Source: Flavicella sediminum (GTDB lineage: Bacteria; Bacteroidota; Bacteroidia; Flavobacteriales; Flavobacteriaceae). From it: a stretch of DNA of 64,000 nt. This document shows, one piece after another, positions 13,226 through 58,450 of the stretch. A program made the position numbers and the translations under genes. The notes under the pieces are model-generated. The model ran no database searches. It was given only the letters and a program-made list of their open reading frames with translations, and had not been told where the DNA came from. The stretch covers positions 1-64,000 of the forward strand of contig NZ_VDET01000021.1 in NCBI RefSeq assembly GCF_006381105.1, written 5' to 3'. Position 1 is the first letter of the stretch; each line of letters begins with the position of its first letter.

Positions 13226-13281
13226 CAGCAATTTATTGGGTCATTAGAGAAAGCTAATTGGTATTGAATTTATGATTTTTA
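13226..13281 (+). promoter_or_regulatory. PUL box 1 and activated promoter (13299 operon)
   Basis: The 27-bp box at 13226-13252 begins CAGCAAT and ends TTAGAGAAA. The -7-like element GATTTTTA at 13274-13281 ends 29 nt after the box, as at the other sites. A transcription start near 13288 would place the first usable ATG at 13299. Confidence 0.65.
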
Positions 13282-13298
13282 CATTTAAATATCGGAAC

Positions 13299-14345
13299 AT
13301 GAAAATTAGAACGCTACCCTTTCTCGTTTTTGGAATTTTGCTTTTTTTTATTTCTTGTAAAAAAGAGGTTGCCATTCTAGAATCGACGTTTATCAAAGCT
13401 CAAGAACCAGGAGCTTATATTTTGGATGCACCTGAAGATTGGTGGCATTGGTGTATGGCACCTATTTACGACAGCTCAGAAAAATTGCATGTGTTTATGT
13501 CGGCAATTCCAAAAGATGGAAGTTGGAGTAGAGATAGTAAAATTGTACATTATACGGCAAATTCACCAAAAGGACCTTATACGTTTGTGGACACTACTTT
13601 TACAAGTAAAACACATACCTATCACAATCCACAAATATCACAAGTAGATGATACCTTTGTTTTGGTTTATCTGTTGAAAAATAGAGATACCCCTGGTGAA
13701 AATCAGGAAATAGGTATTGCTACAGCAGCTTCTTTAAATGGGCCTTGGACAGAAAGTCCTTTCAATCCAATTATAAAAGCTTCGGGGAAACAAGGCAATG
13801 GCGCTACTATTGTACATGCTTCCAATCCAACTTTTGTTAAGGATAAAGATGGAAAATATAGAATATATTACAAGTCAATGACAGATGCTTATGGTTCAAA
13901 AAGATTTCGAGAAATTTCGTTAGCAACGAGTACTAAAATTGAAGGACCCTATGTCAATTATGAAAAAAATCCATTGATAAGTTATGCCGATAAAGGTTTA
14001 GACATTGAAGATTGTTATGCTTTTTTATACAAAGATTCTTATTTTATGATTGTTGAAGACCGAAAAGGTATAAAAGATATGTTGGATGGGAACTTGGTAA
14101 AGCCAGGAAGACCAGGAGGGTGGCGTCCGGGACTGATTTATAAATCGGACGATGGTTTGGAGTGGGAAAGACCAGAAATAGGGTATAAAACAAACAAACA
14201 ATATTTTGGCGACAAATTGGCTAGAACAGAACGTCCGCATATTTTATGGAAAAATGGAGCTCCTGAATATCTTTTTCTTGCCTGTCACGATGATGATCCC
14301 TCTGCGGGTTTTTATGTGAAGATAAATGATTGGATTCCGAATTAA
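13299..14345 (+). CDS. Five-bladed beta-propeller glycoside hydrolase-like lipoprotein (GH43/GH117/GH32 type)
   Basis: About 348 aa. Signal peptide with lipobox in GILLFFISCKK. The mature protein has repeated propeller-type signatures: APIYDSSEKLHVFMSA, SPKGPYTF, IGIATAASLNGPWTESP, ISLATSTKIEGPYVNYEKNPLI and GLIYKSDDGLEWERP. These are typical of GH43/GH32/GH117-like exo-enzymes that remove terminal sugars; acidic catalytic residues cannot be picked with certainty. I start at 13299 rather than the Met at 13272, because the predicted -7 element (13274-13281) lies between them and the MKIRTLP start gives a proper signal peptide. Next gene overlaps or abuts, so it is an operon. Confidence 0.7.
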   Translation: MKIRTLPFLVFGILLFFISCKKEVAILESTFIKAQEPGAYILDAPEDWWHWCMAPIYDSSEKLHVFMSAIPKDGSWSRDSKIVHYTANSPKGPYTFVDTTFTSKTHTYHNPQISQVDDTFVLVYLLKNRDTPGENQEIGIATAASLNGPWTESPFNPIIKASGKQGNGATIVHASNPTFVKDKDGKYRIYYKSMTDAYGSKRFREISLATSTKIEGPYVNYEKNPLISYADKGLDIEDCYAFLYKDSYFMIVEDRKGIKDMLDGNLVKPGRPGGWRPGLIYKSDDGLEWERPEIGYKTNKQYFGDKLARTERPHILWKNGAPEYLFLACHDDDPSAGFYVKINDWIPN

Positions 14346-14385
14346 ATTGATATATATAGCTGTGTTAAAAAGTAAAGATTACATG

Positions 14386-15585
14386 ATGAAACTAATAAAA
14401 AAAGCAAGTTTTGTTTGCCTGAGTTTTCTTGCAATTTCTTGCGCCTCTTTGCAAGGGCAAACCACTTGGGAAAATAGTGATGGGAGTCATTTTCAACCGA
14501 AGGAATTTTATCCCAAATTTAGTTGGGAATCAACGCCCATGTATTATATGTTTGGAGATCCAAAAAGAGTTCTGACATCGAAGGAAATTAAATTTATAAC
14601 GGAGCGAACAGAATTTATTTGTATTGAAAAGTCACATGGATTGCGACAGTTAGGTGCTGCAGAATTGGGGGCTAAACACGAAATAGCAGCCATTAAGAAA
14701 GTCAATCCCAAAATAAAAGTGCTTTTCTATTTCAATTCAGCCTATGCATGGCCATTTACCTCGTATAATAAAAATTTCACGTATAAAACGATAGAACAGC
14801 ATCCAGAATTAAAGAAGTTTTTAATCTTAGATCCTAAAACTTCGGAATTGGAACAACGTGATCAGACTTTTTATTTTGATGTTTTAAATCCAGAATTTCG
14901 TGATTGGTGGGTAGCTACCGTAGCAAAAGGTGTTGAGTTTTCTGGAGCTGATGGGGCTTTTATAGATCAAATGCATGGTTTTGCTTGGTTGCGACAAGAC
15001 AAAAGCAAGGAAGTACAGAAAGCCATGGGAATGATGATGGCAGCACTAAAAGAAAAATTAGGGCCTCAAAAAATACTCTTGGGAAATAATGCCCATGTAA
15101 GGGCTGCACAGTATGTTTTTCCTTCAATTGATGCCAATATGTTTGAGCATTATAAAACAGAATTTATAAGTAAAGAAAGCCTCGTAAAAGATTGGGCAGA
15201 TATGTTGCGAATTTCGCAAGCAGGAAAAATGTCCATTTTTAGAATAGGTGTTGAATACACAAAAACGGCCCAAAAAAATAAACAATTTTATAAAGGAAGA
15301 AGTCGGAATGAAAGGTTTGTCGTTCTTGCGAAAGAAAAAGTAGCATTTTATCATGCCTGTTACTTAATAGGGGCACAACCTTATTCTTATTTTCAATATG
15401 GCTGGGGTTGGCAGCTTTCACATGGTTCTTTGGTAGATTTTCCGGAGTTTCAAAAAAAATTAGGCGCACCTAAAGGAGCTTATGTCAGAAAATCGGACAA
15501 AGAATGGGAGTTTACCCGGGAATTTGAACACGCCTCCGTTTGGGTGGATTTGGAGAAAGAGCAAGCTGAGATAAAATGGAAATAA
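14386..15585 (+). CDS. Putative TIM-barrel glycoside hydrolase, family A (paralogue of 29903 and 31093)
   Basis: About 400 aa with an export signal (MKLIKKASFVCLSFLAISCASLQGQ; lipobox and signal peptidase I site both possible). The mature part begins FSWESTPMYYMFGDP and ends with the family signature KLGAPKGAYVRK...EFTREFEHASVWVDLEKEQAEIKWK, shared with the two proteins at 29903 and 31093. A strand with a buried acidic residue, SGADGAFIDQMHG, aligns with IDGLFMDANIKV of the paralogues. This looks like one of the hypothetical glycosyl-hydrolase (GHL-type) families; the context suggests a fucan-cutting enzyme. The longer upstream reading begins inside the previous gene and lacks a signal peptide. 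Confidence 0.6.
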   Translation: MKLIKKASFVCLSFLAISCASLQGQTTWENSDGSHFQPKEFYPKFSWESTPMYYMFGDPKRVLTSKEIKFITERTEFICIEKSHGLRQLGAAELGAKHEIAAIKKVNPKIKVLFYFNSAYAWPFTSYNKNFTYKTIEQHPELKKFLILDPKTSELEQRDQTFYFDVLNPEFRDWWVATVAKGVEFSGADGAFIDQMHGFAWLRQDKSKEVQKAMGMMMAALKEKLGPQKILLGNNAHVRAAQYVFPSIDANMFEHYKTEFISKESLVKDWADMLRISQAGKMSIFRIGVEYTKTAQKNKQFYKGRSRNERFVVLAKEKVAFYHACYLIGAQPYSYFQYGWGWQLSHGSLVDFPEFQKKLGAPKGAYVRKSDKEWEFTREFEHASVWVDLEKEQAEIKWK

Positions 15586-15730
15586 TGAAAAACACCTAGT
15601 TTGATTTCTTAAAGAAAGAGAATTTATGGGCAGATGTAGATAGAGTTAGGAAAATATAATTAATTTTATCAGTTCGCAATAGACAGCTTTACTATAAACA
15701 GAAGATTACTATTTTTTAATAGAACAAAAT

Positions 15731-17974
15731 ATGAAACAAATTCTTTGGGCATTGTTAACACTTATCCTCGTTTTCAATGGGCACTCTCAAGAGATAAATT
15801 TTTTACAAGCTCCAGAAAATCAACAACTTTATGCTAGAGATACAACGAATTCCGCCGAAGTTTTTCTGGAAGGAGAATTTAAAGAAAAAGCAAAGTCTAA
15901 ATATATTGTTTTAAAAGTTTTTAAAAACGATAAACTGTTTGCCTCACAAAAATCACGAATAAAAAAGAACAAATTTGCAATTTCTACAAAAATTGAGGCA
16001 GGTTTACATCAATATAGATTTGAGCTGTATATAAAAAATAAAAAACAAGAGAAGCTTTGTTTTGTTGCCGATGATGTGGTCTGTGGAGATGCATATATTA
16101 TTACCGGACAGTCTAATTCTCATGCCAGTAGCACCTTGTCAACCTATAGCAATCCTTTTTGTAGAAGTTTTGGTGTAAAAACAGGTTATAAAAGTTATAC
16201 GGAAGCACATAAAAAAATAAGATGGGGCTTAGCTACCGGAAATTGTCCAGATTTAAAACGAGAAATTGGAGGATGGTTTACCGTAAATCCTTTGGGTGTT
16301 GGCGTTTGGGGAATGGAGCTAATGCGACTTTTGGTTGAAAAACATCAAATGCCAGTTTGTATTATAAATGGTGGAAGTGGATCTTCATCGATAGAACAAA
16401 ACATGAAAAAAACATCCAAACCTACTTTGGATACTAGTTTTGGTCGGTTAGCATATCGTGTTGAACAAGCGGGATTAAAAAATAAAATAAAAGCTATTTT
16501 CTGGCATCAAGGAGAGTCTAATTCAAATACAGAAAAAAGTTACAAAGCCTATGCGGCTAATTTTGATACGCTTTTAACGGATTGGAAAAAGGAATACAAC
16601 AGTCTTGAAAAAATATATCTATTTCAATTACATCCCGGTTGCGGAAAACAGGCGGTATCGTTTCATGCGGAATTAAGAGAAGTACAAAATCAGTTGGTAG
16701 AAAAATACGATATGTTGGAAATTATGTCGACTCTAGGAGTACCTGGACATGATGGCTGTCATTTTTCATACAAAGGCTATTTAGAGTTTGCCAATCGAAT
16801 TTTTCCTTTGGTGTCTAGAGATTTTTATGGAGTAAAAGTAACTCATACAATAACACCACCAACGTTGCTAGAAGCAAGTTATAAAAGCCCTAAACAAATA
16901 GTGTTAAGCTTCGATCAACCTTTATACTTAGAAGAAAAGAAGGAGGTAAATGGAGTGCGCTATTTCTTAAAAGATCAGTTTTTCTTTAGCAATGAACAAG
17001 GAAAAACCAATGCAATAGAAAAAGTTGAAAATATTAAAGTTGTTGGAAATACGTTGATAATTTCCTTGGTATATGACGCAACCTACAAATACATTAGCTA
17101 TTTGCCAGGTAAATTTTATACAGGTACCAAAGTTATTTATAACGGACCTTGGCTATTTGGTAAAGAAAATAATATTGGTGCCTTAAGTTTTTATCAAAGG
17201 CCTATTAAAACAATTGAAAAAAAAATAGTTCAAAAAAAACAAAATGATTTTAAAGGCTTCCAAATGATAACGGCAGCTTTAAATGGTGTCAACTACAAAG
17301 TTGTACTTCCTAAAAAAGCCAATAAAAATAGAGATTGGATTTGGAGAGCACGTTTTTGGGGACATGAACCTCAAACAGATATTGCCTTGTTAGAAAAAGG
17401 TTTTCATTTGGTGTATATAGAAGTTGCAGGTTTGTTTGGGAATGAAAAAGCACTGCGTATTTGGGATGATTTTTATGGGTTGATGACTACAAAATACCAA
17501 TTGAATTCAAAAGTAGTTTTGGAAGGAATGAGTAGAGGTGGTTTGATTGTTTTTAATTGGGCAAATAAAAATGCTTCAAAAGTGGCTTGTATGTATGTCG
17601 ATGCTCCTGTGTGCGATTTTAAAAGTTGGCCAGCTGGCAAAGGTTTAGGTGAAGGTTCTGCAGGTGCTTGGAAATCGTGTTTAAAAGTATATGGTTTTTC
17701 TGAAGAAGAAGCAATGGGATACAAAGGGAATCCGGTAGATCATTTAGAGAATATTGCGCTGAATAAAGTACCTGTTTTAAGTGTTGTTGGAAATGCGGAT
17801 AAGGTAGTTCCTGTTTCAGAAAACTCATTGCTTGTTCAAAAAAAATTACAACAACTCGGTTGGGATGCAACCATCATTGGCAAACCAGGAATCGGTCATC
17901 ATCCTCATTCTTTAAAAGATCCTAAACCAATTGTCGATTTTATTTTAGAACATACAGGGAATTCAATCAAATAA
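15731..17974 (+). CDS. Dual-domain secreted carbohydrate esterase: SGNH (sialate O-acetylesterase-like) plus alpha/beta-hydrolase
   Basis: 747 aa with signal peptide MKQILWALLTLILVFNGHSQ. Residues about 110-370 are an SGNH/SASA-type esterase: GQSN with Ser128, FWHQGESNS near 256-263, and a DxxH pair in HDGCHFSYKGY near 340. A linker domain follows, about 375-500. Residues about 510-747 are an alpha/beta-hydrolase: nucleophile elbow GMSRGG near 598-603, an aspartate in GNADKVVP, and a histidine in GIGHHPH near 722. Two complete, unrelated serine-esterase catalytic sites in one protein suggest removal of two ester types, or of acetyl groups at two positions. It is third in the 13299 unit, after a 145-bp gap that holds only a weak box-like sequence. 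Confidence 0.75.
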   Translation: MKQILWALLTLILVFNGHSQEINFLQAPENQQLYARDTTNSAEVFLEGEFKEKAKSKYIVLKVFKNDKLFASQKSRIKKNKFAISTKIEAGLHQYRFELYIKNKKQEKLCFVADDVVCGDAYIITGQSNSHASSTLSTYSNPFCRSFGVKTGYKSYTEAHKKIRWGLATGNCPDLKREIGGWFTVNPLGVGVWGMELMRLLVEKHQMPVCIINGGSGSSSIEQNMKKTSKPTLDTSFGRLAYRVEQAGLKNKIKAIFWHQGESNSNTEKSYKAYAANFDTLLTDWKKEYNSLEKIYLFQLHPGCGKQAVSFHAELREVQNQLVEKYDMLEIMSTLGVPGHDGCHFSYKGYLEFANRIFPLVSRDFYGVKVTHTITPPTLLEASYKSPKQIVLSFDQPLYLEEKKEVNGVRYFLKDQFFFSNEQGKTNAIEKVENIKVVGNTLIISLVYDATYKYISYLPGKFYTGTKVIYNGPWLFGKENNIGALSFYQRPIKTIEKKIVQKKQNDFKGFQMITAALNGVNYKVVLPKKANKNRDWIWRARFWGHEPQTDIALLEKGFHLVYIEVAGLFGNEKALRIWDDFYGLMTTKYQLNSKVVLEGMSRGGLIVFNWANKNASKVACMYVDAPVCDFKSWPAGKGLGEGSAGAWKSCLKVYGFSEEEAMGYKGNPVDHLENIALNKVPVLSVVGNADKVVPVSENSLLVQKKLQQLGWDATIIGKPGIGHHPHSLKDPKPIVDFILEHTGNSIK

Positions 17975-18295
17975 TACTATTCGGAGTTTTATTTGATGGC
18001 TAACTTCTTTAGAGATGAAAACTTGGGTTTTTATAGTTTAAAAAGAGTTGCTTTTATAAAAGAATGTTCTGCTTCTGTGTTGTGCTCGTTTACTTATGTG
18101 GATAGCATTTTTTTGAGACAAACCGCTTTGGTCCAATAGGAAATACTGTATTTGCAGTAATAAAGAAAGTTCTTGATTGATTAGAGAAAGAGTTTCATGG
18201 AAAACGAGCTTATCTTTGCTAAAAAAGATAGCTGGAGGAGTAATACGTTGCCTTTTAATTGCGATTGTCTTTTAATAATTAGAATTCAGAAAATT
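17975..18295. other. Intergenic region before the first tandem sulfatase pair
   Basis: No gene is supported in this 321-bp stretch. Its right half carries box 2 and its -7 element; the rest is AT-rich with no clear terminator. Confidence 0.6.
18163..18218 (+). promoter_or_regulatory. PUL box 2 and activated promoter (18296 operon)
   Basis: The box is at 18163-18189, with AGAAAG at 18164-18169 and again at 18185-18190, a perfect 6-bp direct repeat 21 bp apart, and TTGATT between. The perfect -7 element TATCTTTG (18211-18218) ends 29 nt after the box. There is no -33 element, so an activator is expected to be needed. Confidence 0.75.
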
Positions 18296-19834
18296 ATGAA
18301 TAAAATTAAAAGGCATGCCCTTTTTTTAGCAGTACTTCTTGCTATATCCTTGAGTTCCTATGCACAAAACAAAAAACAGGGAACAACGAAAAAAACTAAT
18401 ATAATATTTATTTTGGCAGATGATTTGGGCTATGGAGATATTTCTAGCTACAATGAAAATTCAAAAATAAATACGGCACATATAGACAAGTTGGCTTCTC
18501 AAGGCGTTCTGTTTACAGATGCACATACTAGCAGTTCTGTTTGCACGCCTACACGTTATGGAATTTTAACAGGACGTTACAATTGGCGTTCAAAATTAAA
18601 ATCGGGAGTGATCAAAGGTTTTAGCACAGCTTTAATTCAGCAAGACAGGGCTACCATAGGAGATGTACTCAAATCAAATGGTTATAAAACGGCGGCAATT
18701 GGTAAATGGCATTTAGGTTGGGATTGGGCAAATATTGAAGCAGGAGAATCAAAAGTCAATTATTCTAAAAAAATTAAAAACGGACCTACAACACTTGGTT
18801 TTGATTATTGGTTTGGTTTCTGTGGTTCTTTAGATATGGAGCCCTATGTTTGGGTAGAAAATGAGCAACCGACTATGGTTCCTACTAAATTTACACAAAA
18901 TACAGGACAAGCGATGTGGAGGAAAGGACTGACTTCGGATGATTTTGATCATGAGCAAGTCTTGCCGAAAATTACTGCTAAAACAGTCACCTATATTCAG
19001 GAAAACGCAAATGGAGAAAAACCATTTTTCTTATACATGCCTTTGCCAGCTCCCCATACACCTATTTTACCAACCCCTGAGTTTAAAGGGAAAAGTGGTT
19101 TAGACAATCCTTATGGTGATTTTGTATTGATGGTAGATGCAGTGGTAGGAGCAGTGATGAAAGCTTTGGAAGATCAGGGAATCGCTGACAATACCATGGT
19201 GGTTTTTACGAGTGATAACGGATGTTCTAATCAAGCAAATTTTAAACAATTAGCGAAAAAAGGACACGATCCTAGTTATGTTTTTAGAGGACATAAAGCC
19301 GATATTTTTGAAGGAGGACATCGGGTGCCATTTATTGTTCGTTGGCCTGAAGAAGTCAAAGCAGGAACTTCGAATCAATTGGTGTGTACCACAGATTTTT
19401 TTGCAACAGTAACGGATGTTTTAGGACTAAAAATTGAAGACAATGTAGCGGAAGATAGTTTTAGTTTTTTAGCTGCCTTAAAGGTAAAATCCAAAGCGGA
19501 GGTTCGAGAAAGCATTGTACATCATTCTATAAATGGTTCCTTTGCGTATCGTAAAAATAATTGGAAAGCCGTTTTTTGTCCAGGTTCTGGTGGTTGGAGT
19601 TTTCCAAGACCAAATTCAAAAGAAGCCAAAGCTTTACCAAAATTTCAATTGTACAATTTGAAAAAAGATATGGGTGAAGAAGATAATTTAGAAAATAAAA
19701 AACCTGAATTATTAGAAAAATACCGTGATGAATTGGCACAGCTTGTTTTAAAAGGAAGAAGTACGAAAGGTGCGGTTCAAAAAAATGACGGTGCTGAACG
19801 TTGGAAGCAGTTAAGTTGGATGCAAGACAAATAA
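18296..19834 (+). CDS. S1-family sulfatase (CTPTR group), secreted
   Basis: About 512 aa. Signal peptide MNKIKRHALFLAVLLAISLSSYAQ. Sulfatase hallmarks: FILADDLGYGD, formylglycine motif CTPTRYGILTGR with Cys83, GKWHLGWDW, MPLPAPHTPILP, FTSDNGCS, GGHRVPFIVRWP. It groups with the proteins at 43499 and 53567, which share the CTPTRYG motif, the RYNWR/RYSWR extension and the C-terminal GRSTKG segment, so these are three copies of one sulfatase type. I reject the Met at 18197, which lies upstream of the predicted transcription start (-7 ends at 18218) and lacks a signal peptide. It is followed by a second sulfatase 45 bp downstream. Confidence 0.9.
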   Translation: MNKIKRHALFLAVLLAISLSSYAQNKKQGTTKKTNIIFILADDLGYGDISSYNENSKINTAHIDKLASQGVLFTDAHTSSSVCTPTRYGILTGRYNWRSKLKSGVIKGFSTALIQQDRATIGDVLKSNGYKTAAIGKWHLGWDWANIEAGESKVNYSKKIKNGPTTLGFDYWFGFCGSLDMEPYVWVENEQPTMVPTKFTQNTGQAMWRKGLTSDDFDHEQVLPKITAKTVTYIQENANGEKPFFLYMPLPAPHTPILPTPEFKGKSGLDNPYGDFVLMVDAVVGAVMKALEDQGIADNTMVVFTSDNGCSNQANFKQLAKKGHDPSYVFRGHKADIFEGGHRVPFIVRWPEEVKAGTSNQLVCTTDFFATVTDVLGLKIEDNVAEDSFSFLAALKVKSKAEVRESIVHHSINGSFAYRKNNWKAVFCPGSGGWSFPRPNSKEAKALPKFQLYNLKKDMGEEDNLENKKPELLEKYRDELAQLVLKGRSTKGAVQKNDGAERWKQLSWMQDK

Positions 19835-19879
19835 TAGAAGAATAAAATAGCGCAATACAAATTAAAATAAATAAAAACC

Positions 19880-21739
19880 ATGAAGTTAAAACAATTTTTT
19901 AAACTCCCTGAAAATCAATTCAAAAAGGGAATTAATTCAACCTCTTATTTCTTGCTTTTATTTGCATTGTTTTCTTTCGTTTCTTGCAAAGAAAAAGAAG
20001 GAAAGACTGCAGGTGAAAAAAAGAAACCGAATATTGTTTTTGTAATTACCGATGATCAAGGGTATGGAGATTTAGGACATACAGGAAATCCGATTATCAA
20101 AACACCTACCATTGATAAATTTGCAACTGAGTCTGTGAGTTTAACAAATTACCATGTGGGTACTACATGTGCACCTACTAGAGCAGGTTTGCTAACAGGA
20201 AGAAATTGCAATAGAAATGGAGTTTGGCATACCATTATGGGGGCTTCTATGTTGAATAGAGAAGAAGTTACGATGGCAGATGTGTTGCAGCAATCTGGCT
20301 ATAAAACAGGTATGTTTGGAAAATGGCATTTGGGAGATAACCATCCGTTTAGACCGTATGAAAGAGGTTTTGATGAAGCTTTTTACCACGGTGGTGGTGG
20401 GGTGGGTCAAACACCAGATTATTGGGATAATGATTATTTTGATGATTCTTACTACAGAAATGGTGTTCCAGAAAAACAAGAAGGCTATTGTACTGATATT
20501 TGGTTTGATGAAGCCATGCGTTTTATTGAAGCTAAAAAAGAAGATCCTTTCTTTTGTTATTTGAGTTTAAATGCTCCACATGGTCCTTATAATGTGCCTA
20601 AAGAGTATTATGATATGTACAAAGATGAAACTGCTATTAGTGAAAAACAAAAGCGTTTTTATGGAATGATTACCAATATTGATGACAATTTTTCTAAGTT
20701 GTTGACTAAATTGGAAAGCCTTGGAATTGCTGACAATACAATTATTGTTTTTACAACAGATAACGGAACAGCTAGAGGTTATAAAGTTGATGAGAAATCA
20801 AATAAATTACTAGGCTACAATGCTGGAATGCGTGGTACTAAAGGAAGTGAGTATGACGGAGGTCATCGTGTACCTTTTATTGTTAGATGGCCAGATGGTG
20901 GTTTGACAGGAGGAAAAAGCTTGGGGAACTTAGTAGCACATGTAGATATGTTACCAACGTTTATGGGCTTAACAGGACAAAAATTTACTCCAACAAAAAC
21001 CATGGATGGTGCAGATTTGAGTTCTTATTTATTAGGAACAGCTGAAGCTCCTAAAAGATATTTAGTAACAGATACACAGCGTGTGCCTTGGCCTGTAAAA
21101 GGAAAGAACAGTTGCGTGATGGATGATAACTGGAGATTGATCAAAGGACGTGAGTTGTATAATATTTCTGAAGATCCGGGACAGGAACATAATATTGCCG
21201 ATGCACATCCTGAAAAAGTAGCAGAAATGAATGCTTTTTATGAAAGTTGGTGGAAAGACGTTATCAAGGAAACAAAATTTTCTGTGATTAATTTAGGTGT
21301 GGATAAAATAGATGCTTTGTCTTGTCATGATGCACGTACAATAGATTTTTACCCACCTTGGAACCAACAATTAATTAGAGCTGGTAAACCTATGGAGCCT
21401 GCTCCATTTACGGTAAACTTTGTAAAAGCAGGTAAGTATAAATTTCATTTAAGAAGATGGCCAGCAGAAAGTGGCTTGGCACTTGGTGCAGATTTGAAAG
21501 ATGGAAGAGCAGCTACCTCACATACAGAAGAAATTGTGAATGGAAATGCATTGAAGTTTAAAAAAGCTTATTTAAAAATAGGGAAAAACAAAGTAGAAGT
21601 AGCTGTAGATAATAAGGCAACAGCGGCTGTATTAGAAATGGAAGTTGCTGAAGGTGAAACAGAGCTACTAGCTTATTTTGATATGCTTAACGGAAAACCT
21701 TGCAATGCGTTTTATATTGATGTTGAAAAAATAGACTAA
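19880..21739 (+). CDS. S1-family sulfatase with C-terminal accessory domain, lipoprotein
   Basis: 619 aa. Lipobox in FSFVSCKEK (Cys36). Core motifs: VITDDQGYGDLGHTGNP, formylglycine motif CAPTR with Cys97, GKWHLGDN, FTTDNGTARG, GGHRVPFIVRWPDGG. It is longer than typical S1 enzymes: residues about 480-619 form an extra domain, probably beta-rich, beginning near DALSCHDARTIDFYPPWNQQ. It is second gene of the unit started by box 2 and is followed by a strong terminator. The arylsulfatase A-like branch is likely; subfamily and sulfate position are not readable here. Confidence 0.9.
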   Translation: MKLKQFFKLPENQFKKGINSTSYFLLLFALFSFVSCKEKEGKTAGEKKKPNIVFVITDDQGYGDLGHTGNPIIKTPTIDKFATESVSLTNYHVGTTCAPTRAGLLTGRNCNRNGVWHTIMGASMLNREEVTMADVLQQSGYKTGMFGKWHLGDNHPFRPYERGFDEAFYHGGGGVGQTPDYWDNDYFDDSYYRNGVPEKQEGYCTDIWFDEAMRFIEAKKEDPFFCYLSLNAPHGPYNVPKEYYDMYKDETAISEKQKRFYGMITNIDDNFSKLLTKLESLGIADNTIIVFTTDNGTARGYKVDEKSNKLLGYNAGMRGTKGSEYDGGHRVPFIVRWPDGGLTGGKSLGNLVAHVDMLPTFMGLTGQKFTPTKTMDGADLSSYLLGTAEAPKRYLVTDTQRVPWPVKGKNSCVMDDNWRLIKGRELYNISEDPGQEHNIADAHPEKVAEMNAFYESWWKDVIKETKFSVINLGVDKIDALSCHDARTIDFYPPWNQQLIRAGKPMEPAPFTVNFVKAGKYKFHLRRWPAESGLALGADLKDGRAATSHTEEIVNGNALKFKKAYLKIGKNKVEVAVDNKATAAVLEMEVAEGETELLAYFDMLNGKPCNAFYIDVEKID

Positions 21740-21772
21740 AGATTTATCCTTTTTACGATAAGCGTATTTCAG

Positions 21773-21811
21773 AAAAGGTCATTCTAAATGTATTTAGAAT
21801 GACCTTTTTTT
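21773..21811 (+). terminator. Strong Rho-independent terminator
   Basis: A 17-bp stem, AAAAGGTCATTCTAAAT (21773-21789) with ATTTAGAATGACCTTTT, two-base loop and T run, closing the 18296-21739 operon. Confidence 0.9.
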
Positions 21812-24417: not shown

Positions 24418-24489
24418 CTCTTAAATTTTTTAATTTCCCTATCAATCGTAAAAATTATATTTTCTTTTTATTGAAAAGCTAATACACTA

Positions 24490-24546
24490 CAAAAGTAACT
24501 GTAGATGCTAGAAAATGACTTTCTCTGTTCTTTCATTCTATTGCTC
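24490..24546 (-). promoter_or_regulatory. PUL box 8 and activated promoter (GH29 gene)
   Basis: On the minus strand the box (24520-24546) reads GAGCAAT at its start and GAGAAA at its end with TGA in the middle. The perfect -7 element TACTTTTG (24490-24497) ends 30 nt after the box, one more than at the other eight. Confidence 0.75.
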
Positions 24547-24614
24547 AAATAGTGTTTTGTACTTAAAACAGTGGGCTATTTGTGTTTTTATTGCTTAAAA
24601 TGGTGGATAAACTA

Positions 24615-24655
24615 AAATCCCCCTGCTTTGCATAAATGAAAAGTCAGGGGGATTT
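24615..24655 (-). terminator. Terminator-like hairpin after susD
   Basis: AAATCCCCCTG (24615-24625) and CAGGGGGATTT (24645-24655), an 11-bp GC-rich perfect stem with a 19-nt loop, 20 nt past the susD stop. The T tract is short. Confidence 0.65.
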
Positions 24656-24674
24656 AAATTGCAACAATTACAAA

Positions 24675-26333: not shown

Positions 26334-26356
26334 AATCTATATCTTATAAATAGTTA

Positions 26357-29506: not shown

Positions 29507-29531
29507 ATTTATTTGTTAAAATTAGTTTAGG

Positions 29532-29587
29532 CTAATTTAGATAGATGCTTAAAAACAGACTTTCTTTAAATAACCATAAGTTTGCTC
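29532..29587 (-). promoter_or_regulatory. PUL box 9 and activated promoter (susCD)
   Basis: On the minus strand the box (29561-29587) starts GAGCAAA and ends AAAGAAA, with TGG in the centre. The -7-like element TAAATTAG (29532-29539) ends exactly 29 nt after the box. The leader before the susC start codon would be only about 20 nt. Confidence 0.65.
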
Positions 29588-29653
29588 ATTTTGTGCAATA
29601 TACCAAAACGCTAGGCTTTTCGTGGGCTTAGAGTTTTGAAAGTAAGTATAGGG

Positions 29654-29670: not shown

Positions 29671-29708
29671 TTAAGTAATTTTTAAGGAAGCTCTTTATTA
29701 GTCAATTT

Positions 29709-29764
29709 GAGCATGATTATGATGAATTCGAGAAAGCGTTATTTTGAATGGTTGTGTAATTTTA
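29709..29764 (+). promoter_or_regulatory. PUL box 7 and activated promoter (29903 operon)
   Basis: The box (29709-29735) starts GAGCA, has TGATGA in the middle and ends GAGAAA. The -7-like element TAATTTTA (29757-29764) ends exactly 29 nt after it. The predicted leader is about 130 nt. Confidence 0.7.
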
Positions 29765-42319: not shown

Positions 42320-42321
42320 CA

Positions 42322-43467: not shown

Positions 43468-43498
43468 AAATACATTTTCATTAAATAAAACGAGAGTT

Positions 43499-46044: not shown

Positions 46045-46061
46045 ATTGAAATGCTTATCTA

Positions 46062-46088
46062 CAGCAATTACTTGTGTAATTTGAGTAT
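46062..46088 (+). promoter_or_regulatory. Degenerate second copy of the PUL box
   Basis: It starts CAGCAATT, has TG at positions 12-13 and GAG at 22-24, but the end is GAGTAT rather than GAGAAA. It lies 93 bp upstream of box 3. No -7 element lies 29 nt after it, so if real it would be an accessory binding site of the GH95 operon. Confidence 0.3.
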
Positions 46089-46154
46089 GTAGCTGTCTTG
46101 TAAATCTTCGTAATAGCTCGGTTTAGTCGCATTTATTTTAGGAATGGCCGTATT

Positions 46155-46210
46155 CAGCAATTGTTTGAATGATATGAGAAAATAAAAGTTGAATTAGTTT
46201 TTTAGTTTAG
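46155..46210 (+). promoter_or_regulatory. PUL box 3 and activated promoter (46237 operon)
   Basis: The box (46155-46181) starts CAGCAATT, has TTGAATGA in the middle and ends GAGAAA. The -7-like element TAGTTTAG (46203-46210) ends exactly 29 nt after it and has the same TTAG ending as the susC promoter. The leader is about 20 nt. Confidence 0.7.
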
Positions 46211-46236
46211 CCTTTGTAATATTATACATCCAAACA

Positions 46237-48618: not shown

Positions 48619-48623
48619 AAACA

Positions 48624-50144: not shown

Positions 50145-50167
50145 ACCTTATTACAAAAAAACTTATC

Positions 50168-51724
50168 ATGCAATTTAACACCTCTCGAATTTTACTAAGA
50201 ACACTACTTTTTGTTCTACTTAATTTTTATTCTGCTGTAGCTTTTAACAAAACAGTTGTAAATAATCCAACAAAAATTGAGTTAGCTTCTCTATTTCAAA
50301 ACCATATGGTTTTACAAAGAGATGCAAAAATTCCTGTTTGGGGAAAAGGAGAACCTGGTACAAAAATTACAGTACAGTTTGCAAATACTACAAAAAAAAC
50401 AACCGTTGATAAAAATGGAAAATGGCAAGTAAAGCTACCTTCTTTAAAAGCTAGTTTTGAGTCTAGAACGATGACAATATCATCGGCTAAGGAAACCATA
50501 GAAATTACAGATGTTGTTGTTGGAGAAGTTTGGATTTGCTCTGGGCAATCTAACATGCAGTTTCATGTAAATTCTGTTCCCGAATTAAAAAAACTAATTC
50601 CATCAGCAAAGAATATTAGAAGCTTTCAGGTAAAAAACACCGTTGCTTTTACACCTCAAGACACTTGTGAAGGAACTTGGAAAACAGAAAACCCAAGCAG
50701 CGCTGTAGCTTTTTCTTTTGCTTATTTTTTAGAAGATGCGATTGATACTCCTATAGGAATTATTCAAACTTCTTGGGGAAGTTCTTCTTTAGAAGCTTGG
50801 ATGCCTAGAGAATTAACAGCTAAAGTTCCTCATTTTAAAACAATGATGGAAGAGTTTGATGCTGATACTACAACCCAAAATAAAATTAAAACCATTTTAG
50901 AAGGACCAAAACCTTGGACTAGAAATGATGATGTTTTTTTACGCAGACAATCTAACATTCTTTACAATGCTATGATGCACCCACTAATTCCTTACGCTTG
51001 TAGAGGTTTGGTGTGGTATCAAGGAGAACGTAACACACAGTCTATGCAGGGTATGGTAGAAAAACCTTGGTTTTCTAGAAATTCTGGAATGTTAAAATAC
51101 AGTAGTTCACTACAACAATGGATTCACAATTATAGAGATTCTTGGAATCAAAAAGACATGGATTTTTTAATTGTCATGCTTCCTGGTTACGGACAAATTT
51201 TAAAAGATAGTCCCGTAAAAGAAATGAATCATCCCAATGCTCATTCTTGGGCTTGGATGCGTGAGTCTCAGTTAAAAGCACTAGAAATTCCTCATACATC
51301 TGTAGCCAATACGATTGATTTAGGAGATGTTAAGAACATTCATCCTAAAGACAAATTACCTGTAGGACAAAGATTGGCTTTACTTGCACAACGTGATGCT
51401 TTAGATTTAAAAGTAAAAGCATCGGGTCCTGTATTTAAAAAAGCTAAAATAAAAAACAACACAATTACTATTTGTTTTGATGAAGCCAAAACATTAAAAA
51501 CAACAGACGGAAAAGCTCCTAGAGAATTTTGGCTGGCAGATGATTCTAAAAAATGGGTACAAGCCAATGCTGAAATAAAAGGAGAAACTATTGTGTTGTC
51601 GTCTTCTAAACTAAAAAACCCAAAATACGTTAGATATGCGTTTACAGGAAAACCTAACGTAAACTTGGTCAACGAAATTGACTTACCTGCTTATCCGTTT
51701 AGAACAGATAACTTTAAACCTTAA
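50168..51724 (+). CDS. Sialate O-acetylesterase-like SGNH esterase
   Basis: 518 aa with signal region MQFNTSRILLRTLLFVLLNFYSAVA. Family start ELASLFQNHMVLQRDAKIPVWGKGEPG, then the SGNH block I in VVVGEVWICSGQSNMQFHV (nucleophile Ser in GQSN near 129), and block III-like GLVWYQGERNTQS. The C-terminal segment includes NTIDLGDVKNIHPKDKLPVGQRLALLA with the DxxH-type catalytic His. Members remove O-acetyl groups from sugars; here most likely from the fucan. It lies between the GH29 gene (24 bp) and a sulfatase (17 bp). Confidence 0.88.
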   Translation: MQFNTSRILLRTLLFVLLNFYSAVAFNKTVVNNPTKIELASLFQNHMVLQRDAKIPVWGKGEPGTKITVQFANTTKKTTVDKNGKWQVKLPSLKASFESRTMTISSAKETIEITDVVVGEVWICSGQSNMQFHVNSVPELKKLIPSAKNIRSFQVKNTVAFTPQDTCEGTWKTENPSSAVAFSFAYFLEDAIDTPIGIIQTSWGSSSLEAWMPRELTAKVPHFKTMMEEFDADTTTQNKIKTILEGPKPWTRNDDVFLRRQSNILYNAMMHPLIPYACRGLVWYQGERNTQSMQGMVEKPWFSRNSGMLKYSSSLQQWIHNYRDSWNQKDMDFLIVMLPGYGQILKDSPVKEMNHPNAHSWAWMRESQLKALEIPHTSVANTIDLGDVKNIHPKDKLPVGQRLALLAQRDALDLKVKASGPVFKKAKIKNNTITICFDEAKTLKTTDGKAPREFWLADDSKKWVQANAEIKGETIVLSSSKLKNPKYVRYAFTGKPNVNLVNEIDLPAYPFRTDNFKP

Positions 51725-51740
51725 AACTAAACCCTTATAA

Positions 51741-53303
51741 ATGAAAGCTCTTATAAAAAACATTCTTAAAATTACTGGCTATGCTTTTACGGTAGCTATC
51801 TATCTTTCTTTTAATACGCTTTTGGCTAGTTCTAAAAAACCAAAGCCAAATGTTATTTTTGTGTTTTCTGATGATCAAAGATTTAATTCTTTAAGTATGA
51901 CTGGAGATGCAGTTACTAAAACTCCAAATATTGATCAACTAGCTAAAGAAGGAGTGTTTTTTAACAATGCCTATATCACTAGTCCTATTTGTGGACCTAG
52001 TAGAGCTAATATATTTTCAGGGCAATGGGAAAGAAAAAACAAAATTGGTTTTAACTATGTTTCTAAAAACTTAATATCTGAAGAAACTTATCAAAATAGT
52101 TGGTTGGCACAGTTAAAAAAAGCAGGATATTCTACAGCATTTATTGGAAAAAGTCACACCAAAATTGCCGACAGAAAAAACACTCCTTTAAATAAAAATA
52201 CGGATTTTGCTTATTACGGAGAAGGCCACTTAGGATTTTATCCTGCAAGAAAACACAAACAGTTTTCTAACCTAAAAAACAAAACTCAAATAGAAGGATT
52301 GTTAGAGGCTACAAAAGCTTATTTAACACAAGATGATAGCTACGATTATTTTTACAAAAATGCGTTGCCTTCTATTCAAAATCAATTACAAAAAAGGGAT
52401 CCTAAAAAGCCTTTTTCTGCTTGGATTAACTTAAACCTTCCACACGCATCTAGTATTGGAGGAATGGGATCACAAGCCACAGATCCGGAATACTACAAAA
52501 CACTTTATAACGATGTAAAACATCAAATTGAACTTCCGGAAGGATATCCGCAAGACATTAGTTTACCAGACAATGTATATGCTACCAAAGATTTAATGAA
52601 GTATTATGTAACATCTAACAAAAACAGATTGTTAAACGAGAAACTTAAGATGGATAGAGCAGTATACGCTATTGATCTAATGATGGGAAATTTACGTGCC
52701 TTTTTAAAAGAAATTGGAGAAGATAAAAACACCATTATAGTGTTTTGTTCAGACAACGGTTTGTTTTTAGGAGAACACGGTTTAGGTGGTAAAACTATTT
52801 TGTACGATGAATCAGTACACGTTCCCCTAGTTGTATATTCTCCATTATTCGATAAAAAAACAAAAGGTAAAGTAATTGATGAATTGGTAGTTGGACAAGA
52901 TATTCCTGCCACTATTTTAGATATGTGTGGTATAGCTGTTCCTAAATCGTACCAAGGAAAAAGCATGCTTCCTTTAATTGAGAAAAATAAAACTCCTTGG
53001 AGAGAAGAAATCTTTTTGGAAAACTTATTTACAGATCAAGGTTATCCTCGTCAGGAAGGAATAAGAACAAAACAATACAAATACATTCGCTCTTTTAGTA
53101 AAGAAAATGACAGAAGTAAATATTTACCTGAACAGTCTATCAAAACAAAAGAAGCGCCTATTTACGAAGAATTGTTTGATATTTTAAAAGATCCTAAAGA
53201 GCAAAATAATTTAGCTTCCATTCCAAAATATAAAAGTGAACTGGATTATTTTAGGAAAAAATGTAGTGAAAAAGCAGAAGAATTATTAACCTCCTGTGAC
53301 TAA
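51741..53303 (+). CDS. S1-family sulfatase (CGPSR)
   Basis: 520 aa. Signal region about MKALIKNILKITGYAFTVAIYLSFNTLLA. Motifs: VIFVFSDDQRFNSLSMTGD, CGPSRANIFSGQ with Cys84 (formylglycine position), FIGKSHT in place of GKWHL, FCSDNGLFLGEHGLGGKTILYDESVHVPLVVY. The SDDQRF start and the GEHGLGGK segment mark a subfamily unlike the other nine sulfatases here. It is fourth and last gene in the box 3 operon. Confidence 0.9.
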   Translation: MKALIKNILKITGYAFTVAIYLSFNTLLASSKKPKPNVIFVFSDDQRFNSLSMTGDAVTKTPNIDQLAKEGVFFNNAYITSPICGPSRANIFSGQWERKNKIGFNYVSKNLISEETYQNSWLAQLKKAGYSTAFIGKSHTKIADRKNTPLNKNTDFAYYGEGHLGFYPARKHKQFSNLKNKTQIEGLLEATKAYLTQDDSYDYFYKNALPSIQNQLQKRDPKKPFSAWINLNLPHASSIGGMGSQATDPEYYKTLYNDVKHQIELPEGYPQDISLPDNVYATKDLMKYYVTSNKNRLLNEKLKMDRAVYAIDLMMGNLRAFLKEIGEDKNTIIVFCSDNGLFLGEHGLGGKTILYDESVHVPLVVYSPLFDKKTKGKVIDELVVGQDIPATILDMCGIAVPKSYQGKSMLPLIEKNKTPWREEIFLENLFTDQGYPRQEGIRTKQYKYIRSFSKENDRSKYLPEQSIKTKEAPIYEELFDILKDPKEQNNLASIPKYKSELDYFRKKCSEKAEELLTSCD

Positions 53304-53370
53304 GTTGTTTTTCATAATAGTAAGAAAAACAGGATCAATTAATGAGCTAATAACAGGTTTAGATAGTTTA

Positions 53371-53426
53371 GAGCAATTTTTTGATGAGATTGAGAAAACA
53401 CAACTGTTCTTTTGAAGCTAACTTTG
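53371..53426 (+). promoter_or_regulatory. PUL box 4 and activated promoter (53567 gene)
   Basis: The box (53371-53397) starts GAGCAATT, has TTGATGAG in the middle and ends TTGAGAAA. The perfect -7 element TAACTTTG (53419-53426) ends exactly 29 nt later. The leader is about 135 nt, similar in length to that of the 29903 operon. Confidence 0.8.
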
Positions 53427-53566
53427 ACCTAGTCAATCTACAGTCTTGGCGTAACAACAAGTCTGTTGATTTATAAGAATAGTTTTAAGGTAGCTAGACT
53501 TAAATAGTTTTCAGAAAAACAATTTATAGAAACTGCCAAAGGTGAAATTCAATTAAATTAGCAAGT

Positions 53567-55132
53567 ATGAATAAATCGAATGTTTTTAATGCAAAATTAA
53601 TTTTGGCAATGTTGTTAACTGTTGTTTTGGACGTGAATGCTCAAAAAAAATCAGAACAACCCAATATTGTTTTTATCATTTGTGACGATTTAGGTTATGG
53701 AGATGTACAGAGTTTGGCTCCAGAAACAAGTAAAATTAAAACACCACATATTGATAGGTTAACACGAGAAGGAATGGTGTTTACAGATGCACATTCTGGC
53801 TCATCGGTTTGTACTCCAACACGTTATGGTATCATGACAGGGAGGTATAGTTGGCGAACAAAACTTCAAAGCGGTGTTGTTCAAGGCTTTGCTCCAAATT
53901 TAGTTGCAGAGGATCGACCAACAATTGGTAATTTTCTTAAAAGTCAAGGCTATCATACTGCAATCATAGGAAAATGGCACTTGAATTTTCAATATCTAGA
54001 TGCTGTTTCAAAAGAACCTATTTCAAAAATTGGAAAAAAACAGTTGCCACCAGTAGGTGCCATTATTCCTGATGGACCTATACATCGTGGGTTCGATTAT
54101 TACCACGGTTTTCATCATGCCAGAGATATGAAAGCTGTGATTGAAAATGACAAAGTAATTCTTTATGATGATGAAATTAATATGTTACCTCGTTTGACTA
54201 GTAAATCGGTCAATTATATTCATCAACAGGCAAAAAATAAAGATGGAAAACCATTTTTTTTATATGTTCCTTTAGGCTCTCCACATACACCAATATTGCC
54301 TTCAAAAGAATGGCAGGGTAAAAGCGGAATGGGGGCATATGCCGATTTTGTGATGCAAACAGATGCAACGGTAGGATCGATTACAAAAGCACTAGATGAA
54401 TCGGGCTTGTCGAAAAATACCTTGCTTATATTTACAAGTGATAATGGTACGTCTAAAGCGGCAGATATTCCAAATTTAGAGAAATATGGACATATTGTAA
54501 GTGCTGGATACCGTGGTTCAAAATCAGATTTATGGGATGGTGGTCATCGAGTGCCTTTTATTGTAAAATGGCCAAATAAAGTAAAAGCCCACTCAACCAA
54601 TAGTTCGTTAATTTGTTTAACGGATGTTTTGGCTACGTTTTCTGAAATAACGCATGTTGCTGTACCAAGTAAAAGTGGTGAGGATAGCGTAAGTTTTTTA
54701 GCTGCATTAAAAGGAGAAAAAATAAAGAGTACCAGAGCGGGAGTAATTCATCACTCAATTAGTGGGCATTTTGCCTATCGATTAGGGAAATGGAAATTAC
54801 TATTAGCCAAAGGATCTGGCGGTTGGTCGTCACCAAGAGAAAACGAGTCTTCTAAAATGCCAATTGCGCAATTATATGATATAGAAAAAGATCCGGCAGA
54901 AACTCAAAATTTGTACGAAACCCGTCCTGAAATTGCAAAAAAACTTTTAAAGCAATTGGAATTAGATATCAAAACAGGGCGAAGTACAAAAGGAGAATTC
55001 TCAAAAAATGATGTAGATAAAATCATTTTATGGAAAAGCGAAAACAGTAATAAGGCTAAAAATAAGTCCAAAAAAAATAAGAAGGCAAAAAAGAAAAGGT
55101 CTAAAAAGAAGAAGTCTAGAGAGGAGGTTTAA
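53567..55132 (+). CDS. S1-family sulfatase (CTPTR group) with poly-basic C-terminal tail
   Basis: 521 aa, signal peptide ending near LDVNAQ. Motifs: FIICDDLGYGD, CTPTRYGIMTGRYSWR with Cys82, GKWHLNFQY, VPLGSPHTPILP, FTSDNGTSKA, GGHRVPFIVKWP. Third member of the CTPTR group (with 18296 and 43499), sharing GRSTKG near residue 480. After it the protein ends in a tail of about 25 residues made almost only of Lys, Ser, Asn, Ala and Arg, which may hold the enzyme against an anionic polysaccharide. Single-gene unit under box 4. Confidence 0.9.
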   Translation: MNKSNVFNAKLILAMLLTVVLDVNAQKKSEQPNIVFIICDDLGYGDVQSLAPETSKIKTPHIDRLTREGMVFTDAHSGSSVCTPTRYGIMTGRYSWRTKLQSGVVQGFAPNLVAEDRPTIGNFLKSQGYHTAIIGKWHLNFQYLDAVSKEPISKIGKKQLPPVGAIIPDGPIHRGFDYYHGFHHARDMKAVIENDKVILYDDEINMLPRLTSKSVNYIHQQAKNKDGKPFFLYVPLGSPHTPILPSKEWQGKSGMGAYADFVMQTDATVGSITKALDESGLSKNTLLIFTSDNGTSKAADIPNLEKYGHIVSAGYRGSKSDLWDGGHRVPFIVKWPNKVKAHSTNSSLICLTDVLATFSEITHVAVPSKSGEDSVSFLAALKGEKIKSTRAGVIHHSISGHFAYRLGKWKLLLAKGSGGWSSPRENESSKMPIAQLYDIEKDPAETQNLYETRPEIAKKLLKQLELDIKTGRSTKGEFSKNDVDKIILWKSENSNKAKNKSKKNKKAKKKRSKKKKSREEV

Positions 55133-55151
55133 GATTTACTGTCTGAAAATA

Positions 55152-55193
55152 AATTCACCTCTAGTTGCTGTCAAAGGCTTCTAGAGGTGAATT
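55152..55193. repeat. Perfect 13-bp inverted repeat without a T tract
   Basis: AATTCACCTCTAG (55152-55164) and CTAGAGGTGAATT (55181-55193) pair perfectly around 16 nt, just after the sulfatase stop. GCTTTAC follows, not a T run, so it is either a weak terminator or a transcript-end stabilising hairpin. Confidence 0.55.
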
Positions 55194-55224
55194 GCTTTAC
55201 AACAATAGGGTTCATGCCTGTTTA

Positions 55225-55280
55225 CAGCAATGGTTTGATGAAAAAGAGAAAGTCGTTTTTTTATAGATAGACGTACTTTG
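55225..55280 (+). promoter_or_regulatory. PUL box 5 and activated promoter (55305 operon)
   Basis: The box (55225-55251) starts CAGCAAT, has TTTGATGA in the middle and ends AGAGAAA. The -7-like element GTACTTTG (55273-55280) ends exactly 29 nt later. This puts transcription start near 55287, so translation starts at the ATG at 55305. Confidence 0.75.
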
Positions 55281-55304
55281 TTTTCAAGTAAGCAAAACCA
55301 AACT

Positions 55305-57251: not shown

Positions 57252-57271
57252 AAATAGTTAATATATAGCCT

Positions 57272-58120
57272 ATGAAAAATTTATTATTGTCCTTGCCAAT
57301 CGGAATCGGAATGTTGTTTTTAAGCGGCTTCATTTCTGTAAATAATGAACGAACTACGAGTCAAAGTTTTTGTAGTAAAAAAGTGATTCAAAATAAAGAA
57401 ACCGCTAACTCACGACTTAAAATTTATTATATAAGGCATGCTGAAGGTGGACACAATGTAAAAAAGGAATGGGGAATATTTCCAGAGAGTACATGGCCTT
57501 CTTATGTAGGAAATCCGAATATGTTTACCCCTAAGGGAATTATGCAGCAATCTAGAGTTGCCAATAAGTTAAAACGATTTCATTTTGATTATGTAGCCGT
57601 AAGTCCCGCGTGGCGTTGTAAAAACACCATATTACCTTATTTAAAGGCTTCAAAAAAGAAAGCAGAAATTTGGCCTGAATTGGCTGAGATATATGCAACA
57701 AATTTGATGATTTCACCAGATTTACCCAAACATGAATCAAAAGAAAAAATTCTTGGAGCAGGTACATTAATAAAATTACTTCCTGAAGAAGAACCTTATT
57801 TTACCCTACGTAAAAATGGCTTGTATGAATTTAAGAAAGCTCGTTTTCCTAGAGATCATTCGGAAACTGCGAAAGAGAATGCCGCAAATAAAATTGTTAT
57901 TGATAAGGTATTGGAGTTAATAGCTGATCAAAGCAAGTCTTCTAATACAATACTCTTATCAGGGCATGGAAGTAGTGGTGCCGCTATTTTAAGAATGCTA
58001 ACTAAGAATCCATTGTATCATTTTCCACAAATTTCGAATACAGGCATTTGGATGGTGGAACAACAAGAAGATGGAGCTTTTCAATTAAAAATGTTCAACG
58101 ATGTTCCTTTTCCAGGTTAA
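57272..58120 (+). CDS. Secreted histidine phosphatase (phosphoglycerate mutase-like)
   Basis: 282 aa with hydrophobic N-terminal signal MKNLLLSLPIGIGMLFLSGF. RHA catalytic motif at residues 55-57 (His56 in YYIRHAEGG), an Arg in SPAWRCKNTI near 112, and the second catalytic His in LLSGHGSSGA near 231. These are the histidine-phosphatase superfamily hallmarks. Substrate unknown: a phosphate ester, or possibly another ester, on a sugar. It lies 20 bp after the T9SS enzyme in the box 5 operon, which argues for a role in the same glycan pathway. Confidence 0.8.
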   Translation: MKNLLLSLPIGIGMLFLSGFISVNNERTTSQSFCSKKVIQNKETANSRLKIYYIRHAEGGHNVKKEWGIFPESTWPSYVGNPNMFTPKGIMQQSRVANKLKRFHFDYVAVSPAWRCKNTILPYLKASKKKAEIWPELAEIYATNLMISPDLPKHESKEKILGAGTLIKLLPEEEPYFTLRKNGLYEFKKARFPRDHSETAKENAANKIVIDKVLELIADQSKSSNTILLSGHGSSGAAILRMLTKNPLYHFPQISNTGIWMVEQQEDGAFQLKMFNDVPFPG

Positions 58121-58450
58121 CAAAATTATTTTCCGGCTTGTTTTTATAGAGTGCTCTGTAAAGTAATGACCATGAATTATTGAATCATAGCTCTTTGTTA
58201 CTAAGAATTTTCTAGCTAAAGCAGAACCTTGTTGAAGTGATCTGTTTGTAGGTAAAATTCATTGCGTCAATATTTTAGGTGTGGGTTATGATAGTTTACA
58301 GCAATTTTTTGATGAGTTAGAGAAAAGGATATGGCTTTATAGAAGCTATTTTTACAAGGGCTTAAATCTTGGAAATAACCTTTGTGTTTAGGCTGATGAA
58401 CGAATCAACCCAATAAAAGAATAATTTTAATTTGATTATCTTTTAGGAAC
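58121..58450. other. Intergenic region before the 58451 gene
   Basis: 330 bp without a gene. It contains box 6 and its -7 element; the rest is AT-rich and unremarkable. Confidence 0.6.
58299..58354 (+). promoter_or_regulatory. PUL box 6 and activated promoter (58451 gene)
   Basis: The box (58299-58325) starts CAGCAATT, has TTGATGAG in the middle and ends TAGAGAAA, the closest to consensus. The -7-like element TATTTTTA (58347-58354) ends exactly 29 nt later. The leader is about 90 nt. Confidence 0.75.

Follow-up and report, generated by a model that had tools for sequence, protein, structure and literature searches.

Promoters of a very probable sulfated-fucan locus in Flavicella sediminum share a 37-bp direct-repeat operator and point to a likely HTCS regulator on another contig

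The window analyzed here, a 64,000-nt stretch of Flavicella sediminum DNA (contig NZ_VDET01000021.1, positions 1 to 64,000), carries a polysaccharide utilization locus (PUL) in which an initial annotation had described nine 27-bp boxes as marks of one regulon. It is highly likely that these boxes belong to activator operators of a single hybrid two-component system (HTCS), which acts in trans on the fucan locus of the window, as judged from sequence for both binding and activation. The genome comprises 4,581,197 bases in 77 contigs, and the window corresponds to C14:1-64000 of a contig of 97,110 bases.

The nine boxes were all found where the initial annotation had placed them, on the same strands. 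At box positions 2-6, AGCAA was exact in seven boxes, while those at 18163 and 29709 read AGAAA and AGCAT; TG occupied positions 12-13 in all nine, and GAGAAA positions 22-27 in eight, the box at 29561 reading AAGAAA. AGCAA, TG and GAGAAA were nearly invariant across the nine, and little else was conserved apart from a -7-like element, which occupies positions 49-56 when the box is numbered 1-27. The pattern AGCAAN5TGN8RAGAAA had seven exact matches in the 4,581,197 bases, all inside the window, and the remaining two boxes matched it with one mismatch; once one mismatch was allowed, the genome gave 56 matches vs. 37 for the reversed control, and the pattern became uninformative. A 30-position model (R1) built from the nine boxes found nine genome matches with E values of 2e-4 to 7e-3, all in the window, the next best having an E value of 0.7; since R1 was built from the same nine, only the absence of matches elsewhere counts as new. 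By both pattern and model, strong matches were confined to the nine. In these searches the matrix was applied to selected stretches, and the whole genome was searched with patterns and with models that scored 150 of several thousand first-look candidates; the model E values are rough, and a later genome-wide model search gave 32 matches in the own genome at E ≤ 0.5.

The box proved longer than the 27 bp first assigned to it, as conservation extends 10 bp further upstream. Alignment of 39 sites from five other genomes revealed a 37-bp operator that consists of two 16-bp half-sites and a 5-bp spacer, arranged head-to-tail with a 21-bp period. The second half-site repeats the first exactly 21 bp on: TG at -9/-8 corresponds to TG at 12/13, A at -3 to A at 18, and GAGCAA at 1-6 to GAG[A/C]AA at 22-27. 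The 21-bp direct repeat proposed earlier is supported; the TG-N5-A part upstream of the box had been missed. In 94 unique sites selected by joint score (operator plus -7), the mean column correlation between half-sites was 0.83 at lag 21 and at most 0.35 at lags 18-20 and 22-24.

Promoters of the Bacteroidota primary sigma factor carry TAnnTTTG at -7 and TTTG at -33 (PMC7366714). A TAnnTTTG-like -7 element starts 21 nt (±1) downstream of the fucan operator; as first reported, it ends 29 nt past the box in eight of the nine sites and 30 nt past it in one (24520), and all nine elements resemble TAnnTTTG. The -33 TTTG is absent, as the A-rich box end sits where it would fall in all nine, which bears out the earlier remark that these promoters have no good -33 element. 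When operators outside the training set were picked by operator score alone, the best -7 among 41 offsets lay within ±1 of the expected place in 37 of 41 (38 of 43 before two operators already in the training set were removed). The other spacing tallies are biased by the way their sites were selected: among the 94 joint-score sites the -7 offset was 0 in 79, +1 in 14 and -1 in one, and among 48 sites retained only with a -7 score ≥ 2.4 at offsets -1 to 1, outside open reading frames (ORFs), the own genome had seven at 0 and two at +1, and other genomes had 32, 5 and 2 at 0, +1 and -1, respectively.

In the own-genome stretches scanned, 16 operator sites were counted, with 12 on C14, three on C12 and at least one on C8 (Table 1). 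The proposal of one regulon stands, though its nine members were too few. The 12 sites on C14 with joint scores of at least 20 are the nine (38-44) and three weaker ones (20.6-23.4), each of the latter directly 5′ of a sulfatase. As controls, no site ≥ 20 turned up in 400 kb taken from elsewhere in the own genome or in 296 kb surrounding 15 further HTCS genes; sites ≥ 13 numbered four and one, respectively, the highest at 18.1. Two sub-threshold sites on C8, 179418 (17.6) and 183628 (16.7), precede secretion-tail or neighbouring genes. In genome G234, a gene weakly similar (26-33% identity) to the C12:1775099 target also has a site.

Pfam searches with 40 of the 44 ORFs listed in the window recognised no regulator, and C14 has none of the genome's 39 HTH_18 matches; the regulator should therefore act in trans. 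A regulator further along the contig was also sought and discarded: 20 of the 29 ORFs of at least 130 aa in C14:60001-97110 were run on Pfam and gave only FUR-type and TetR-type regulators. The likely and best candidate is G000:C8:173855-178000, a full-length HTCS of 1381 aa with the complete set of Pfam domains (propeller sensor, Y_Y_Y, HisKA, HATPase, receiver and HTH_18), whose sensor matches structure 4a2l (E 6e-80). It closes a gene run encoding a class II aldolase, L-fucose isomerase, FGGY kinase, major facilitator superfamily transporter and fructose-bisphosphatase, and is the sole full-length counterpart here of the HTCSs of relatives. In four relatives, the region of the fucan locus also encodes an HTCS (1375-1410 aa), and the C8 HTCS is 53-63% identical, over the whole length, to these and to those of G256, G361 and G349 C8. 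The HTCS lies with susCD in G200, G349, G409 and G230 and on another contig here; such co-localisation is usual but not needed for function. Within this 77-contig assembly, the split between HTCS and locus is most readily explained by a rearrangement.

Another HTCS of this clade has left a trace at G000:C12:1628647-1629219 (L158:18647-19219). This 190-aa frame holds an HTCS C terminus (part of the receiver plus HTH_18), with 64-73% identity over ~158 residues, fused to upstream sequence that is unrelated; situated directly ahead of an argF-like gene, it reads as a decayed HTCS remnant. The surroundings of this remnant resemble those at G409:C1:108127 (L213), where two genes headed by an operator directly precede an argF-like gene, as if the argF-like spot were a landing place for fucan genes.

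Across the 397 genomes of the family, a SusC orthologue was found in eight, the own included, and an HTCS orthologue (at least 52% identity) in 11, which include all eight. The operators are conserved in ten further genomes; in other genera, they recur at loci with orthologous SusC. The first model, R1, matched in six of 60 relatives including the own genome, with one or two weak matches in each of the other five; in five of the other seven SusC-orthologue genomes, its best match was within 20 kb of the SusC orthologue. The matrix scan of selected regions, with the -7 filters, gave the 48 sites in six genomes. In the non-training regions of G256, G361 and G349 C8, three, six and three sites, respectively, had joint scores > 22, vs. 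none ≥ 20 in ten shuffles of each, and the G409 region with an HTCS of another clade (41% identical) had no site ≥ 15.

The link between operator and HTCS was further examined by prediction. Model A2 covers 68 positions of operator and promoter, was built from 38 sites (of 39 sites at offset 0, one that was almost the same as another in G234 was omitted) and was run on 21 genomes. The three HTCS carriers without a SusC orthologue gave best E values of 2.3e-8, 2.8e-9 and 1.9e-8, while those of the 18 other genomes were all ≥ 3e-4, that is, 3/3 vs. 0/18 at E < 1e-4. In G371 a cluster of sites extends to the HTCS, in G383 a single strong site adjoins it, and in G156 two lie near it. In a second survey, made on named genomes and confined to the best 80 of 251 relatives, 16 loci had an HTCS of at least 47% identity, among them those of Mariniflexile fucanivorans, Wenyingzhuangia, Polaribacter, Tamlana, Arenibacter and Kriegella. 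Sites with a joint score ≥ 20 lay within 10 kb of 11 of these 16 orthologues (10 of 15 when L277, overlapping with a training region, is set aside), vs. none of the 64 other HTCS loci, which amount to 1.40 Mb and of which only 13 are below 38% G+C. Nine of the 11 positive loci have a site 66-367 bp beyond the HTCS match, in the manner of C8:178311 in the own genome. The L277 locus (Tamlana sedimentorum contig4) has FucP, AraC, aldolase, isomerase, kinase, fructose-bisphosphatase and HTCS in the same order as C8, and its contig also carries a susC orthologue. Since the operators track one HTCS clade, these results favour the AraC-type activator, for example an HTCS, that had been suggested from the repeat.

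Several observations weigh against assigning the operators to one HTCS. Only three of the nine -7 elements in the window (18163, 24520 and 53371) are exact TAnnTTTG; four of the 41 non-training operators lack a -7 at the expected place; and in the training regions, only 44 of 56 operators picked blind to the -7 keep the spacing. An operator was looked for but not found ahead of the listed genes 36754 and 61533, and one further match, C12:432296 (joint 20.9), lies inside a 376-aa ORF, was rejected as a target and is counted as chance. No site ≥ 20 was found in the flanks of five of the 16 orthologues (L264, L265, L270, L271 and L274). The best two of the 18 other genomes, G002 and G197, carry related HTCSs (40-44%) with weak sites nearby, and G200, G234 and G349 have two HTCS orthologues each, so that a one-to-one pairing is not proven.

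An HTCS acting on these operators may work as follows. A fucan-derived oligosaccharide would bind the periplasmic sensor, and a phosphorelay would free the HTH_18 domain; two HTH_18 monomers would then occupy the half-sites on one DNA face, which head-to-tail half-sites over two helical turns would fit. The proximal monomer, placed where -33 would be, would recruit RNA polymerase to the -7, switching on ~16 promoters of SusCD, fucanase, fucosidase and sulfatase genes. The end of the proximal half-site (box position 27) falls about where the -33 TTTG would sit, which suggests polymerase contact there by the bound protein, by analogy with E. coli AraC. At araI1-araI2, AraC occupies two directly repeated half-sites with a 21-bp period, adjacent to the -35 region; it is a one-component regulator at a different promoter type, whereas the candidate here is an HTCS.

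Three other accounts were weighed. The fucose cluster that contains the HTCS also encodes two stand-alone AraC-family regulators of fucose catabolism, C8:163139 and C8:167754, and proteins of the AraC type can bind to direct repeats; in G234, moreover, an operator heads an orthologue of C8:163139 (62% identical) upstream of a fucose-permease-like gene. That one of these proteins, instead of the HTCS, binds the operators is nevertheless unlikely, because the G234 AraC gene looks like a target, operator sites lie directly behind the HTCS gene, and the flanks of the 16 HTCS orthologues, 11 of which have sites, contain the first AraC only once (L266) and the second twice (L264, L277). An alternative sigma factor of the extracytoplasmic function type, with the box as the upstream element of its promoters, would also be expected to give a conserved box whose distance to the -7 hardly varies. 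The downstream element, however, is the TAnnTTTG of the primary sigma factor (PMC7366714), while the upstream one is a 37-bp direct repeat of period 21, far beyond the length of a -35 hexamer, and tracks an HTCS clade, which leaves such a promoter very improbable.

It is scarcely credible that the boxes are leftovers of recent duplication of promoter regions, with no regulatory meaning. Sulfatase, GHL15 and GH29 genes are indeed repeated in the locus, and the sites at 59750 and 67088 are nearly identical across the operator. Yet the flanks of the nine boxes show no likeness, and since the flanking columns carry little information, recent duplication does not explain the likeness of the boxes; the box is also common to different gene families, recurs at PUL promoters in other genera and was correctly predicted in genomes outside the model.

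Divergent operators are present at G234:C3:203218 (-) and 203288 (+) (L209), one in front of the AraC-family gene and one in front of a sulfatase-like gene; here the HTCS may act on a monosaccharide regulator in a cascade.

Table 1. Operator sites in the F. sediminum genome (positions without a contig name are those of the window)
Site	Strand	Joint score	-7 element	Genes headed and remarks
13062..13098	-	20.6	TACTTTTG at 13033-13040	Sulfatase 11592-13016 (-); weaker; missed by the initial annotation
13216..13252	+		GATTTTTA at 13274-13281 (poor)	13272-17974; box 13226-13252 plus 10 bp upstream
18153..18189	+		TATCTTTG at 18211-18218	Two sulfatases 18197-21739
24520..24556	-		TACTTTTG at 24490-24497	GH29 fucosidase 22612-24417; -7 one base further off
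29561..29597	-		TAAATTAG at 29532-29539	susC-susD 24675-29506
29699..29735	+		TAATTTTA at 29757-29764	Two GHL15-type proteins and two sulfatases, possibly through to 46044; divergent from the susC operator
46145..46181	+		TAGTTTAG at 46203-46210	GH95-GH29-SASA-sulfatase 46237-53303
53361..53397	+		TAACTTTG at 53419-53426	Sulfatase 53567-55132
55215..55251	+		TACTTTG at 55274-55280	Secreted fucanase-like gene; -7 one base short
58289..58325	+		TATTTTTA at 58347-58354	Second fucanase-like gene 58451-59680
59740..59776	+	20.9	TTTATTTG at 59799-59806 (non-canonical)	Sulfatase 60006-61445; weaker; missed by the initial annotation
C14:67088	+			Just upstream of a sulfatase; weaker
C12:1775099	-	39.1		411-aa lipoprotein-like gene; model E 5e-6
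C12:943832	-	28.4		With C12:941142, heads two adjacent sulfatases with secretion tails
C12:941142	-	31.5		See C12:943832
C8:178311	+	26.2		3′ of the HTCS gene; model E only 0.09

The substrate of the locus is very probably sulfated fucan, as judged from the fucanase relatives at 55278, 58451 and 29894. Genes 55278 and 58451, which we take to be of family GH107, are closely related both to the fucanase P5AFcnA (6m8n, E 4e-111 and 1e-100) and to 8bpd, and the GHL15-type 29894 is a relative of endo-1,3-fucanases (9joc, E 7e-136). By Pfam, the window holds SusC, SusD, three GH29, one GH95, three GHL15, ten sulfatases and several esterases, so that susCD, fucanases, fucosidases and sulfatases, the gene set of a fucan PUL, are all represented by Pfam matches or Protein Data Bank (PDB) relatives. 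A PDB search with 13272-14345 gave no match, and NCBIfam run on ten proteins returned little besides secretion tails and sulfatase.

The gene calls are plain ORFs, and the promoters bear on several of their starts. The listed start of 13272-17974 falls before the -7 element, and its true first start is probably the in-frame ATG at 13299. The listed start 18197 precedes the -7 element and the listed start 55278 lies inside it, so both true starts should be downstream; an in-frame TTG occurs at 18248 for the former. The esterase 42322-43467 and sulfatase 43301-45079 ORFs, both on the + strand, overlap by 167 nt, and the sulfatase therefore probably starts downstream of its first ATG. The 46155 box is preceded, 93 bp upstream at 46062 (+), by another operator-like sequence that lacks a -7. 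The + strand gene 39959-42319 encodes a parallel beta-helix protein, presumably GH141-like, with a C-terminal PDZ domain, an unusual pairing.

Whether the layout extends beyond this clade was evaluated with 600-bp stretches beside 64 HTCS genes that are 26-34% identical to the C8 HTCS and have other motifs (several ACCCC). A strong lag-21 repeat ending ~17-24 nt before TAnnTTTG was found in 13 of the 64, compared with 0-5 for the other lags tested except lag 22 (nine), and at 35-42 nt lag 21 occurred in one of 64. When repeats were picked blind and TAnnTTTG was then sought at 15-26 nt, lag 21 gave the highest count (20 of 706), other lags giving 1-14. These counts raise the possibility, at slightly under an even chance, that Bacteroidota HTCS promoters share a rigid frame, in which an operator of 21-bp period ends ~17-24 nt before TAnnTTTG and replaces the -33, whatever the motif; if true, HTCS targets would be findable by layout alone. 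Against it, lag 21 at 5-12 nt was present in seven of 64, the 15 own-genome neighbourhoods of other HTCS genes had no clear lag-21 peak, and the 64 loci, many from a few genera, are not independent. Average self-similarity also peaks at lag 21 in other own-genome stretches; it was therefore rejected as proof of the frame, and per-locus counts were used instead.

Beside the HTCS genes of L285, L289, L291, L294, L296, L300, L328 and L331, several of them from Dyadobacter, ACCCC direct repeats with a ~21-bp period are followed by TAnnTTTG. These repeats are probable operators of another HTCS clade.

The present analysis links a sulfated-fucan locus to a probable sensor-regulator whose gene is not adjacent, an operator sequence and a target list, and fucan sensing, which forms part of the slow turnover of brown-algal carbon, thereby becomes testable. 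The fixed distance from operator to promoter suggests a layout rule for finding HTCS targets. Relative to the literature searched, which covers open-licence papers only and listed no HTCS operator for fucan, the fucan motif and its regulon appear to be new, as do the unlinked regulator and the promoter frame.

HTCS operators built as 21-bp direct repeats were already known. In Bacteroides thetaiotaomicron, according to Ravcheev et al. 2013 (PMC3878776), predicted HTCS operators are direct repeats with an average of 21 bp between sites, and HTCS_Man has two 16-bp sites and a 5-bp spacer, which is exactly the layout of the fucan operator. Those operators were found by phylogenetic footprinting of PUL promoters, as was the fucan operator, but their regulons were chosen for HTCS genes co-localised with susCD, whereas the regulator here is on another contig; the substrate and genera, here fucan and Flavobacteriaceae, also differ. 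The HTCSs BT4124 and BT4663, as described in PMC11253607, have the same protein architecture as the C8 HTCS, and their receiver-HTH part binds promoters of susCD operons in gel shifts; their ligand and targets differ from those predicted for the C8 HTCS. Compared with the promoters of PMC7366714, the fucan promoters keep TAnnTTTG at -7, while the operator end replaces the -33 TTTG.

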